Assembly: GCA_011389815.1 (NCBI GenBank)
Contig: JAABTP010000012.1
Span: forward strand, 1 to 49,075
Direction of reading: 5' to 3'
Origin: Desulfobulbaceae bacterium
GTDB lineage: Bacteria > Desulfobacterota > Desulfobulbia > Desulfobulbales > Desulfobulbaceae
Length of the DNA: 49,075 bases
Shown here: one piece after another, positions 30,648 through 39,451 of the stretch
Position numbering within the stretch: position 1 is the first letter of the stretch
Layout of the letters: every line of letters starts with the position of its first letter
Position numbers and translations under genes: made by a program
Notes under the pieces: model-generated
The model's input: only the letters and a program-made list of their open reading frames with translations
What the model was told of the DNA's origin: nothing
Database searches by the model: none

Positions 30648-31562
30648 ATGATGAACAATTTTTTAAACAAAAACTCTCTTATTGGAGTATTGATCGTCCT
30701 TTTACTGCTGTCCTCTTGGTGGGGCCAAAGTGAAAGCGGAGCCAATAAGCAGCTTGTTGAAGAAAAGGAGGCTGCTGAGGCACAAATCTCCTCAGCAGAA
30801 ACAAAGGCAGCAGAATGCCAGCAAGCACTGCAGGATAAAACTGCTGCACTCACCAAGGCAGAACAACAACTGAATAAGGCAACGAAAAAGAATCAAGGGC
30901 TGGAAAAAAAGCTCTCTGAGAAAAAAGCTGCCCTGGCGGCTCTTGCTCAAGAAGAAAAAATCCTTCTTGAAAAAATCAATACATTGGAGCAATCCCTTGA
31001 TAAAGCAAAGGCTCAACAACAGCAGCAGAAGCAGCAAAATCTCCAGAAAATTGCTCAGGATCATAAGAAAACTCTGATGCAATTAAAAGACGCGAGAGAG
31101 CAGATCGCCCAGCTCCAACAAAGGCACGCTGAGATAAAAAAACAAGCCGATATCCGGATTGCTGAACTGCACAAAAAACAGGCTACGGCTCAGAAACAGG
31201 CTGATGCCCGGATTGCCAAATTGCAAAAGCAACAGGCAAAGATGAAAACCCAGGCTGATGCCCGAATAGCCCAGCTTCACAAAAAACTGAATGAAGCAAC
31301 AGCAGAAACAGAATCCCTCCGCGCTCAGGTCATCGGCTTTGAAAAAGTTGTTGAAGAAAGAAATGCAGCCCTTGCAGACATAAGCAGCGAGTTGCAGTCC
31401 TGTAAGGTCAACACAAAAGTTTTGCTTTCTAAAATTACCGAGCAGGAAAGTGCTCAACAGGGTATGGCAGAAACAATGCATCTTATGGTGCAGGATCTTG
31501 CTGAAGAAGTACAAGAAGCAGGACAAGCTGAGCAGGCCCAACAACAGGCAGAGTCAAAATAA
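30648..31562 (+). CDS. membrane-anchored coiled-coil protein with 18-residue repeats
   Basis: 304 residues. An N-terminal helix (about 10-25, LIGVLIVLLLLSSWWG) anchors it. Residues 32-300 are almost one continuous coiled coil rich in Ala, Gln, Lys and Glu. Inside it lie three consecutive 18-residue units of pattern QADxRIAxLxKxxAxxxK (about 164-217), evidence of recent internal duplication. A poly-Gln patch (AQQQQQKQQ) lies near residue 125. No enzymatic motif is seen. Two start ATGs at 30648 and 30651 follow TAGGAG (30635-30640), favouring 30648. A role as a structural spacer in the envelope is likely but unproven. A hairpin terminator follows. Confidence 0.65.
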   Translation: MMNNFLNKNSLIGVLIVLLLLSSWWGQSESGANKQLVEEKEAAEAQISSAETKAAECQQALQDKTAALTKAEQQLNKATKKNQGLEKKLSEKKAALAALAQEEKILLEKINTLEQSLDKAKAQQQQQKQQNLQKIAQDHKKTLMQLKDAREQIAQLQQRHAEIKKQADIRIAELHKKQATAQKQADARIAKLQKQQAKMKTQADARIAQLHKKLNEATAETESLRAQVIGFEKVVEERNAALADISSELQSCKVNTKVLLSKITEQESAQQGMAETMHLMVQDLAEEVQEAGQAEQAQQQAESK

Positions 31563-36917: not shown

Positions 36918-37874
36918 ATGAAACAAGTTCTTATAACCGGCGGTGCTGGCTTCCTTGGATCCCATCTTTGCGAACGACTCTTGAATGACGGGCATGAAGT
37001 CCTTTGTGTTGATAACTGCTTTACCGGTAATAAGCAGAATATCATGCATCTTATGGATACCCCACGTTTTGAGTTTATCCGTCATGATATCACCTTCTCT
37101 CTTTATCTGGAAGTAGACGAAATTTATAATCTTGCCTGCCCGGCATCGCCAGTACATTATCAATATGACCCGGTGCAGACCACCAAGACTACCGTACACG
37201 GCGCAATCAACATGCTGGGGCTTGCCAAGCGTATTCAGGCCAAAATACTTCAGGCATCGACCTCAGAGGTGTATGGAGACCCATCTGTTCATCCGCAACC
37301 AGAGACATATTGGGGGAATGTTAATCCCATCGGGATCCGCTCCTGTTACGATGAAGGCAAACGTTGCGCTGAAACCCTCTTTTTTGATTATTACCGTCAG
37401 CATCAACTCCGCATTAAAGTTGCGAGAATTTTTAATACCTATGGGCCGCGAATGCATCCTGATGACGGCAGGGTGGTTTCCAACTTTATTGTTCAGGCTC
37501 TCAAAAATCAACCTATCACGGTATACGGAGACGGTTCTCAAACCCGTTCTTTTTGCTATGTGGATGATATGATAGAGGGGTTTATCAGGTTGATGGGGAC
37601 AGATGACGGCTTCACCGGCCCTGTAAATCTTGGCAATCCTGGTGAGTTTACTATCCTGGAATTGGCTGAACAGGTTTTAGAGATGACCGGGTCAAAATCT
37701 GAGATTCAGTTTAATCCGTTGCCTCATGATGATCCTAAGCAAAGAAAACCGGATATTTCACTGGCTGGAAAAGAATTAGATTGGCAACCAAAAGTGAAAT
37801 TGAAAGAAGGGCTTGTAAAAACGATACAATATTTTGACAACTACCTGAAAGTCAATGGTGCTTCTAATATTTGA
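36918..37874 (+). CDS. uxs: UDP-glucuronate decarboxylase (UDP-xylose synthase)
   Basis: NAD-dependent short-chain epimerase-type enzyme that converts UDP-glucuronate to UDP-xylose for surface polysaccharides. 318 residues. Rossmann motif [15 protein letters not shown] at the N-terminus, [23 protein letters not shown] near 57-77 (characteristic of UXS), [10 protein letters not shown] near 113, catalytic Tyr144-x-x-x-Lys148 in [31 protein letters not shown], and [22 protein letters not shown] seven bases before ATG supports the start. It stands 79 bases after gpmI. The following 80 bases lead into the 23-bp repeat array. Confidence 0.92.
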
Positions 37875-37956
37875 AGTCCACTTGTTGAACATTACTGAAA
37901 AAGAGACAGCGTATAGGCACGGGTGCAGGGCAGAATGCAGGTGATAGAAAAAGTGG

Positions 37957-38117
37957 ATGCTAACATGAAGCGATTCTCCATGCTGGCATTGAGATATTCT
38001 CCATGCTACGTTCGAGAGTCTCTCCATGCTACGTTGGAGACTCTCTACATGCTAGCATGGAGACTTTCTCCATGCCAGCATCAAGATTATTTACATGCCA
38101 GCATGGACTGAAACTCC
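37957..38117. repeat. seven contiguous 23-bp dyad-symmetric tandem repeats
   Basis: Units begin at 37957, 37980, 38003, 38026, 38049, 38072 and 38095, with no spacers. Each begins with a 10-base block near the palindrome ATGCTAGCAT (perfect in unit 5; ATGCCAGCAT in units 6 and 7; ATGCTGGCAT in unit 2; ATGCTACGTT in units 3 and 4). In most units a 13-base block near GGAGAnnnTCTCC, itself an inverted repeat, follows. The two palindromes alternate, so the whole array can fold into a row of hairpins or bind a dimeric protein every 23 bp. The period is not a multiple of three, so it is not a coding repeat. Confidence 0.85.
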
Positions 38118-38149: not shown

Positions 38150-38178
38150 TTGACAAAATCTCTGAGTCCTCCTACATT
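38150..38178 (+). promoter_or_regulatory. sigma70-type promoter for the thioredoxin-like gene
   Basis: Perfect TTGACA (38150-38155), 17-bp spacer, TACATT (38173-38178). It starts about 30 bases after the last 23-bp repeat, so a protein bound to the array could act on it. The leader would be about 180 bases. Confidence 0.55.
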
Positions 38179-38367: not shown

Positions 38368-38826
38368 ATGAACAAAAGCCCCGCATCAGCCTTTCTGCTA
38401 CTCCTTGCTTTCATCGTCGCAACCTTCCTCAGCATCCCACACACCGCAGAGGCCGTGACCACCAGTAAATGGTACAAAAAGGCATCCAGCTTTGAAAAAA
38501 TAGAAAAGGCAGCAAAGCAAAAAGACAAACCCTACATCGTCTTCTTTTACACAGACTGGTGCGGCTACTGCAAAAAGATGAACAAGAAATACCTCAGCAA
38601 CACAAAGGTAAAAAAGGTTTTATCAAAATATTACAGGATTAAAATTAAAACAGATGGCAGTGAGAAAGCAAAAGCCTTGGCTCATAGAAAAGGCGTTCAT
38701 GGGATTCCTGACTTCAGGGTAGTCCACCCTGACGGCAGAAATCTTCGAATCCACCCTTTTGGAAAAAACGGTGCAGTGGAAGTCGAAACATTTATCAAAG
38801 CATTGAAAGCAGCCCTGAAGGGCTGA
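38368..38826 (+). CDS. periplasmic thioredoxin-like protein
   Basis: 152 residues. A signal peptide with probable cleavage after TAEA (residue 29) sends it to the periplasm. The rest is a thioredoxin fold with the active pair DWCGYCKKM (Cys65, Cys68) after the strand KPYIVFFYT, and the cis-proline strand GIPDFRVV. The CxxC sequence CGYC differs from that of classic thioredoxin (CGPC) and resembles DsbD-gamma and thioredoxin-7-type proteins. It is a likely disulfide reductase or exchange factor for exported proteins. Ribosome site AAGGAAAGAG precedes ATG. The unknown gene at 38840 follows 13 bases after its stop. Confidence 0.8.
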   Translation: MNKSPASAFLLLLAFIVATFLSIPHTAEAVTTSKWYKKASSFEKIEKAAKQKDKPYIVFFYTDWCGYCKKMNKKYLSNTKVKKVLSKYYRIKIKTDGSEKAKALAHRKGVHGIPDFRVVHPDGRNLRIHPFGKNGAVEVETFIKALKAALKG

Positions 38827-38839
38827 AGCGGAGAATTCC

Positions 38840-39451
38840 ATGAAGCTGGCTGACAGTGATTCTCGGTTAGGCAGAAAACTGGGGAAAATTCTTCCTTCTG
38901 ATGAGGAAGAGAACAAAACAAAAAGACATAACTTTGGTTCAATGGACGAGCCGGAAACAAAACTCGAAAAAAAAATCAAGCAATGGTTCACAGATGAGGA
39001 GAAACAAGAACGCCCCCTGATCATTAAAGAAAATGTAGGATTCCCCCTCAAAATCCTCGTGATCACCTATTATCGGGCCATCCTTTTTGAGGCAGGAGTC
39101 TTATGTCGCCTAAAAGATATCAGTGACAAGGTCTGGCGACAATTTGTTTCAGTTCACCTCACTGAGAATACCCTTTCTTCCACCTTGGAACTTGGTTTCT
39201 TCCGTTACCACGATTCCCTTTTTTATCATAATCCATATAAAGACACCAGCCCATACATGGAAGAGACGGAATTCAAGCTTGATAGCTGGAAGCTGGAACG
39301 ACTCAGCAAGAAAGAAGCGTCTTATATATACAGCGTGTTAAAAGATAAGCAACTCTATTGGCAGGAAACACGCCGCAAAGAACACATTGAGCAGATCGGG
39401 TCCTTGAATTCAAAGCCACCCGGAGGATCGCCACCTAAAAAGAAAGAATAA
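38840..39451 (+). CDS. unknown cytoplasmic protein
   Basis: 203 residues, not recognised. It is highly charged with no signal peptide. The first 60 residues are acidic and basic in blocks (LPSDEEENKTKR, KLEKKIKQWFTDEEKQER). The centre (about 66-160) has strand-rich hydrophobic runs (FPLKILVITYYRAILFEAGVLCRL, VWRQFVSVHL, LELGFFRYHDSLFYHNPY). The C-terminus is a basic helix plus a Pro/Gly/Lys tail (PPGGSPPKKKE). GGAG at 38830-38833 supports the start. It shares a transcript with the thioredoxin-like gene (13-base gap) and converges with the bat operon, whose last stop lies 9 bases away. Confidence 0.6.
   Translation: MKLADSDSRLGRKLGKILPSDEEENKTKRHNFGSMDEPETKLEKKIKQWFTDEEKQERPLIIKENVGFPLKILVITYYRAILFEAGVLCRLKDISDKVWRQFVSVHLTENTLSSTLELGFFRYHDSLFYHNPYKDTSPYMEETEFKLDSWKLERLSKKEASYIYSVLKDKQLYWQETRRKEHIEQIGSLNSKPPGGSPPKKKE

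Follow-up and report, generated by a model that had tools for sequence, protein, structure and literature searches.

Tandem 23-bp palindromes as candidate operators of HU-HIG proteins in Desulfobulbaceae

The stretch of DNA analysed here (the window, 49,075 nucleotides; contig JAABTP010000012.1 of the Desulfobulbaceae assembly GCA_011389815.1) carries, 3' of a uxs-like gene (36918–37874), an array of short palindromes followed by a promoter, which raises the question of what the palindromes are for and what, if anything, binds them. A first-pass annotation had described seven head-to-tail 23-bp units built from two alternating palindromes and had taken them to be non-coding. This description was borne out, with the bounds refined to 37952–38109. 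Each unit is a 20-bp palindrome, the unit starts are spaced exactly 23 bp apart, the best-preserved form reads TCTCCATGC NN GCATGGAGA followed by a 3-bp linker, and the two dyads, ATGCNNGCAT and GGAGANNNTCTCC, alternate every 11.5 bp. CGTT replaces GCAT in two half-sites (units 3 and 4), the outermost half-sites diverge from the consensus, and no protein-coding family was found over the array. The promoter, which had been placed 32 bases past the array, is also there, but its distance from the refined end is 40 bp (TTGACA-N17-TACATT, beginning at 38150). The features of the locus are as follows.

37952–38109, no strand: array of seven 23-bp units, proposed from its match to the array at G000:C26 (see below) as a trans target of the HU-HIG paralogue encoded there
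37952–37971, no strand: unit 1, left terminal, divergent, outer half AGTGGATGC
37975–37994, no strand: unit 2, one mismatch to the consensus palindrome
37998–38017, no strand: unit 3, CGTT variant in the right half
38021–38040, no strand: unit 4, CGTT variant in the right half
38044–38063, no strand: unit 5, one mismatch
38067–38086, no strand: unit 6, two mismatches
38090–38109, no strand: unit 7, right terminal, outer half GGACT
38150–38155, plus strand: −35 box TTGACA, also present at the orthologous loci L046 and L047
38173–38178, plus strand: −10 box TACATT after a 17-bp spacer; TACACT in L046 and L047
38368–38826, plus strand: thioredoxin-like gene (Pfam Thioredoxin_2, Thioredoxin_7) with a putative signal peptide, the presumed target
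38840–39451, plus strand: next gene, 203 aa, without a Pfam family; order kept in L046 and L047

Identity at lag 23 reaches 39/46, whereas no other lag between 17 and 30 gets beyond 30 anywhere in the window; in 1000 Markov shuffles of the 900 bp around the array, no lag between 15 and 39 gave more than 29. Tandem Repeats Finder reports the array as 37974–38107 (period 23, score 107) and finds no second period-23 array in the whole window; a 54-bp repeat (2.8 copies) is located at 31138–31287.

A genome search of the kind that the first-pass annotation had suggested, carried out by BLAST with the array region, returned a single further locus in the same genome (G000:C26) besides the self matches of the palindromes, and this second array stands before an HU-HIG gene. 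Matches were found in eight of 57 genomes, the source genome included. A degenerate two-unit pattern was present in 6/73 genomes of the bacterial family (two of 14 genera) with no control matches, a lower bound, as this strict pattern misses the arrays in genomes G001, G004 and G007 that BLAST detects; a looser pattern was noisy (up to 16 control matches per genome) and served only for picking regions.

The C26 array lies 175 bp upstream of the HU-HIG gene (G000:C26:3407–4480), which encodes a protein of 357 aa with an HU/IHF-like N-terminus and an Ig-like DUF4469 domain, although Pfam alone shows only the latter (24.7 bits, cut-off 22.6). The closest solved structure to the profile is 4fmr (BVU_2165; E 5e-5, aligned profile positions 26–223). 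The same structure, a 'putative bacterial DNA binding protein BVU_2165', came first (E 1e-12) in a fold search with an AlphaFold2 model (mean pLDDT 91, pTM 0.63), in which the N-terminal part also matched HU chains such as 6n2l. Among 78 full-length family members, the HU-superfamily N-terminus was recognized by PF14848 in 54, PF18291 in 40 and PF00216 in 25 (E ≤ 1), and DUF4469 (PF14734) was found in 57. The C26 locus also contains a CRISPR array (L002:494–1166), with a 37-bp repeat starting GTCTTAATACCC, about 280 bp before the palindromes.

The family is present in 12 of the 73 genomes. These fall into the two genera (out of 14) that also have the arrays, which are probably those of cable bacteria, Electrothrix and Electronema. 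Ten of these 12 genomes have 12–28 or more matches (fragments included), G003 has seven and G006 two; the number of paralogues per genome is about 15–28. Among 297 genomes drawn across the phylum, relatives were seen only in the source genome itself.

The association of arrays with HU-HIG genes is nearly general. To 80 paralogue loci picked by protein matches alone we added the six already found, and for each of these 86 loci the best of the periods 15–39 was determined over the 500 bp preceding the start codon. The best period was 23 in 76/86 loci (70/80 of those picked by protein) and in 15/20 loci of a later set, one of which had only 72 bp upstream. Control open reading frames in array-bearing loci gave 23 in 34/313 cases; 18 of these adjoin a strong array, leaving 16/295. 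In the source genome, arrays of unrelated sequence precede all 15 family loci examined. Fourteen of the 86 loci (lag-23 score < 28) were dropped from the motif and promoter counts. Of the resulting 72 arrays, 57 have dyad symmetry with z > 2, and 69 are followed by a promoter-like site (64 with an exact TTGACA, 62 with a spacer of 17), as against a fraction of 0.26 in shuffles. The distance from the −35 box to the ATG has a median of 87 bp, with the central 80% at about 85–90 (n = 67).

Promoter and array are also in register. The distance between them varies widely, but the −35 box holds one phase, 3.3 bp, relative to the 11.5-bp dyad lattice (R 0.71, n = 67), with Rayleigh p < 0.01 in each of five genomes separately. 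The start codon, intended as the phase control, turned out to be phased itself (R 0.53) because its distance from the −35 box is nearly fixed; promoters re-paired with other arrays were used instead and gave R of at most 0.51 in 2000 trials. The phase could also have a neutral origin, through in situ decay of ancestral units. The promoters of the thioredoxin-like loci do not all follow the family phase (4.5 in the window, 9.5 in L046 and 10.5 in L047, against 3.3), which counts against the operator reading. Six C26-type arrays (L048, L049, L050, L051, L045 and L055) have a second TTGAC[AG] promoter, 44.5–45.5 bp off the terminal dyad, and when the gene downstream of the array is an HU-HIG gene, this promoter is divergent.

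Geometry is thus shared by the paralogues and motif sequence is not. Over 416 same-genome paralogue pairs, the mean motif similarity was 0.39, compared with 0.38 for a column-permuted null (sd 0.03, maximum 0.505), and the lone pair above 0.6 is a recent duplicate (95% identity). Protein pairs of at least 80% identity (n = 18), however, averaged 0.606, and several cross-genus pairs with 63–70% protein identity still have the motif in common (0.61–0.68); orthologues that keep one palindrome sequence across the two genera include L210/L221 (0.68), L006/L051 (0.63) and L359/L216 (0.72). The palindromes are private to each paralogue, kept with the protein across species and changed between paralogues, and the array would therefore be a platform for a dimer of its own HU-HIG protein. 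In some close pairs the motif has been switched, as in L198/L258 (83% identical, similarity 0.35). In another such pair, L222/L223 (78% identical), the HU part is the more diverged (52/125 residues, versus 28 in the rest), and over pairs of at least 60% identity r was 0.62 for arm residues 67–125, 0.37 for the helices and 0.50 for the Ig part. These comparisons are suggestive, not decisive, of the HU-arm residues as specificity determinants. A regression over all pairs did not single out the HU arm, the Ig part predicting equally well, which speaks against the operator reading.

We consider it likely that the array is a DNA-level operator for an HU-HIG protein, most probably that of C26, under whose control both the C26 gene itself and, in trans, the thioredoxin-like operon would fall. 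The first-pass annotation had listed arrays of dimer-binding sites and an operator array among its suggestions, and this line of thought is the one that the comparative evidence backs; the HU-HIG partner family was not visible to it. As far as sequence comparison can tell, the HU-HIG protein would bind the array and binding would regulate transcription. Dimers of one sequence-specific protein may occupy the palindromes side by side in 23-bp steps; the C26 protein would act on its own promoter through its own array of the same motif and on the thioredoxin-like operon at 38368 through the array in the window. With a palindrome of its own for each paralogue, every genome would contain a set of largely orthogonal protein–array pairs. 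Auto-repression or silencing appears somewhat more likely than activation because the TTGACA is perfect and the arrays reach up to the promoter.

The motif comparison supports C26 as the partner: the window array matches the C26 array at 0.64, and the next paralogue of the genome at 0.50. An array of the same type also stands before the orthologous thioredoxin-like gene in two congeneric species, G007 (L046) and G004 (L047), where the promoter is kept as TTGACA-N17-TACACT. As the gene order is also the same in both, the 203-aa gene is probably part of the operon. In G004, iPGM adjoins the array upstream, whereas in the window the uxs-like gene sits between the two. This gene, the nearest named relatives of whose product are spread over many phyla, is probably a recent insertion. 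Two observations do not fit well. The orthologous array in G004 has irregular spacing and no good cognate, the best reaching only 0.47, and the G007 orthologue of the C26 gene (L045:9074–10144) has an in-frame TAA although the arrays persist.

Further trans targets can be recognized in the same way. Outside the family genes, 24 arrays were compared with the paralogues of their own genome: eight match one at ≥ 0.57; nine have no match among the fetched paralogues of their genome, which are a subset, and the other seven, from later-fetched genomes, are likewise unmatched within a fetched subset. A paralogue with an ATGC-type motif, predicted for G026, G088 and G089, was absent among 20 fetched loci. 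The L253/L190 motif is found between nifD and nifK, inside the operon, in G034, G026 and G088 (L052, L276 and L278) and, in addition, G034 and G016 carry it between metK and ahcY (nifK was named by Pfam; nifD, metK and ahcY by reading the sequences). In G007 and G004 and also, outside their genus, in G026, the L200 motif stands before a leucine-rich-repeat protein identified by eye; G000 and G004 have it before a hydantoinase too. A TPR gene has a C26-type array upstream in G001, and one shortened to two units in G007. For arrays within operons (nifD–nifK, metK–ahcY) or in a convergent gap (L156), a role as promoter operator is less obvious.

Some other factor, or a general architectural protein that reads the 23-bp palindromic geometry, might bind the arrays, with the HU-HIG link being incidental. 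Such a reader would account for the period, phase and promoter distance being common to paralogues whose array sequences are not, and for the cognate paralogues missing among those fetched. We nevertheless regard it as unlikely, as it leaves unexplained why orthologues across two genera keep one palindrome sequence and why trans arrays match one particular paralogue.

Still less probable are selfish palindromic repeats, with each HU-HIG gene maintaining a small dispersed array family in the manner of RAYT and REPINs. The resemblance is genuine: in both cases, a protein gene is accompanied by its own family of extragenic palindromic repeats, here the gene's own motif plus a few dispersed copies, some of them lying within operons or a convergent gap. 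Unlike RAYT–REPIN systems, the HU-HIG arrays come in few copies, about two to five loci per motif per genome (two for the C26-type motif in the source genome, according to BLAST). They also hold a steady position upstream of promoters, their target genes are the same in several species of two genera, and no nuclease or transposase domain was found by Pfam in the partner family.

The first-pass annotation had also offered a hairpin-rich transcript end, and an RNA-level element (tandem hairpins serving as a terminator or mRNA stabilizer after uxs) would suit palindromes that could fold and the arrays that lie between genes of one operon. We give it very little credence. The array is 5' of a conserved promoter, and in G004 the gene upstream is iPGM, not uxs. 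Over 51 distinct units, the halves of the palindromes combine freely without compensatory pairing, with a significant excess over permuted halves at 0/9 positions (lowest p 0.058); such free mixing fits recognition of half-sites in DNA and not RNA stems. No Rfam family reached its gathering score; the matches under that score were discarded as chance fits of the palindromes. Replication iterons, or a parS-like nucleoid or partition site, which the 23-bp iteron-like spacing had brought to mind, are hardly credible, given the many arrays per chromosome with unrelated, paralogue-specific sequences, which stand before HU-HIG and metabolic genes and not by one replication gene.

How does the proposed operator system of HU-HIG proteins compare with known ones? 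HU-HIG or BVU_2165-like proteins (PF18291, PF14848, PF14734; 4fmr) have the same architecture and fold and form a similarly large paralogue family; we know of no cognate DNA site described for them. Burroughs and others are said to have proposed in 2017 that the HU expansion of Bacteroidetes recognizes invasive elements, not operator arrays. In having dimer sites before the protein's own promoter and a few trans targets, the arrays described here resemble autoregulated regulators with tandem palindromic operators. They differ from these in the HU fold, in the 3–11 head-to-tail sites at 23 bp and in the many same-genome paralogues with unrelated sites. The N-terminal domain shares its fold with HU and IHF, whose sequence specificity is classically weak or indirect. 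This counts against an operator, whereas the paralogue-specific arrays suggest that specificity is sharp here. A search of one open-access library returned no paper describing HU-HIG arrays, nothing on DUF4469 and nothing relevant on HU-HIG or BVU2165. Passages from cable-bacteria papers, including PMC10926707, refer to IS elements and to tandem repeats within proteins but to none of these arrays.

More broadly, we lean slightly towards the view that HU-HIG proteins constitute a previously unrecognized class of sequence-specific regulators in at least two phyla, in which the HU fold has branched into many orthogonal specificities per genome, each with its own array of two-turn palindromes upstream of the promoter. 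If so, DUF4469/HU-HIG proteins, which some genomes of Bacteroides and, probably, of cable bacteria encode in large numbers, would gain a function. The array of each gene would be a readable record of the specificity of its protein, and together these arrays would provide naturally matched protein–DNA pairs from which a specificity code of the HU fold could be derived. The thioredoxin-like, TPR, leucine-rich-repeat, nifDK and metK–ahcY targets would be the first predicted regulons of cable bacteria.

Cable bacteria cannot be cultured; arrays in Bacteroides open the idea of HU-HIG operators to genetic testing at once. Bacteroides sp. GM023 has 41 matches to PF18291, and 13 of 21 loci have a best upstream period of 22 (11 loci) or 23 (two loci) with a score of at least 28. 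Such arrays are present before all 12 genes of at least 190 aa and before one of nine shorter ones, and their motifs, compared by eye, differ from gene to gene. Four of 33 control open reading frames (from the GM023 loci and L130) also reached this score and period, all within loci of counted arrays or a neighbour. In L264, some 400 bp separate the repeat from the start codon. L336, a locus with a short Bacteroides HU-HIG gene, has no 22–23-bp array and carries upstream a 15-bp tandem repeat of the TAACAAGTTTGTTAC type.
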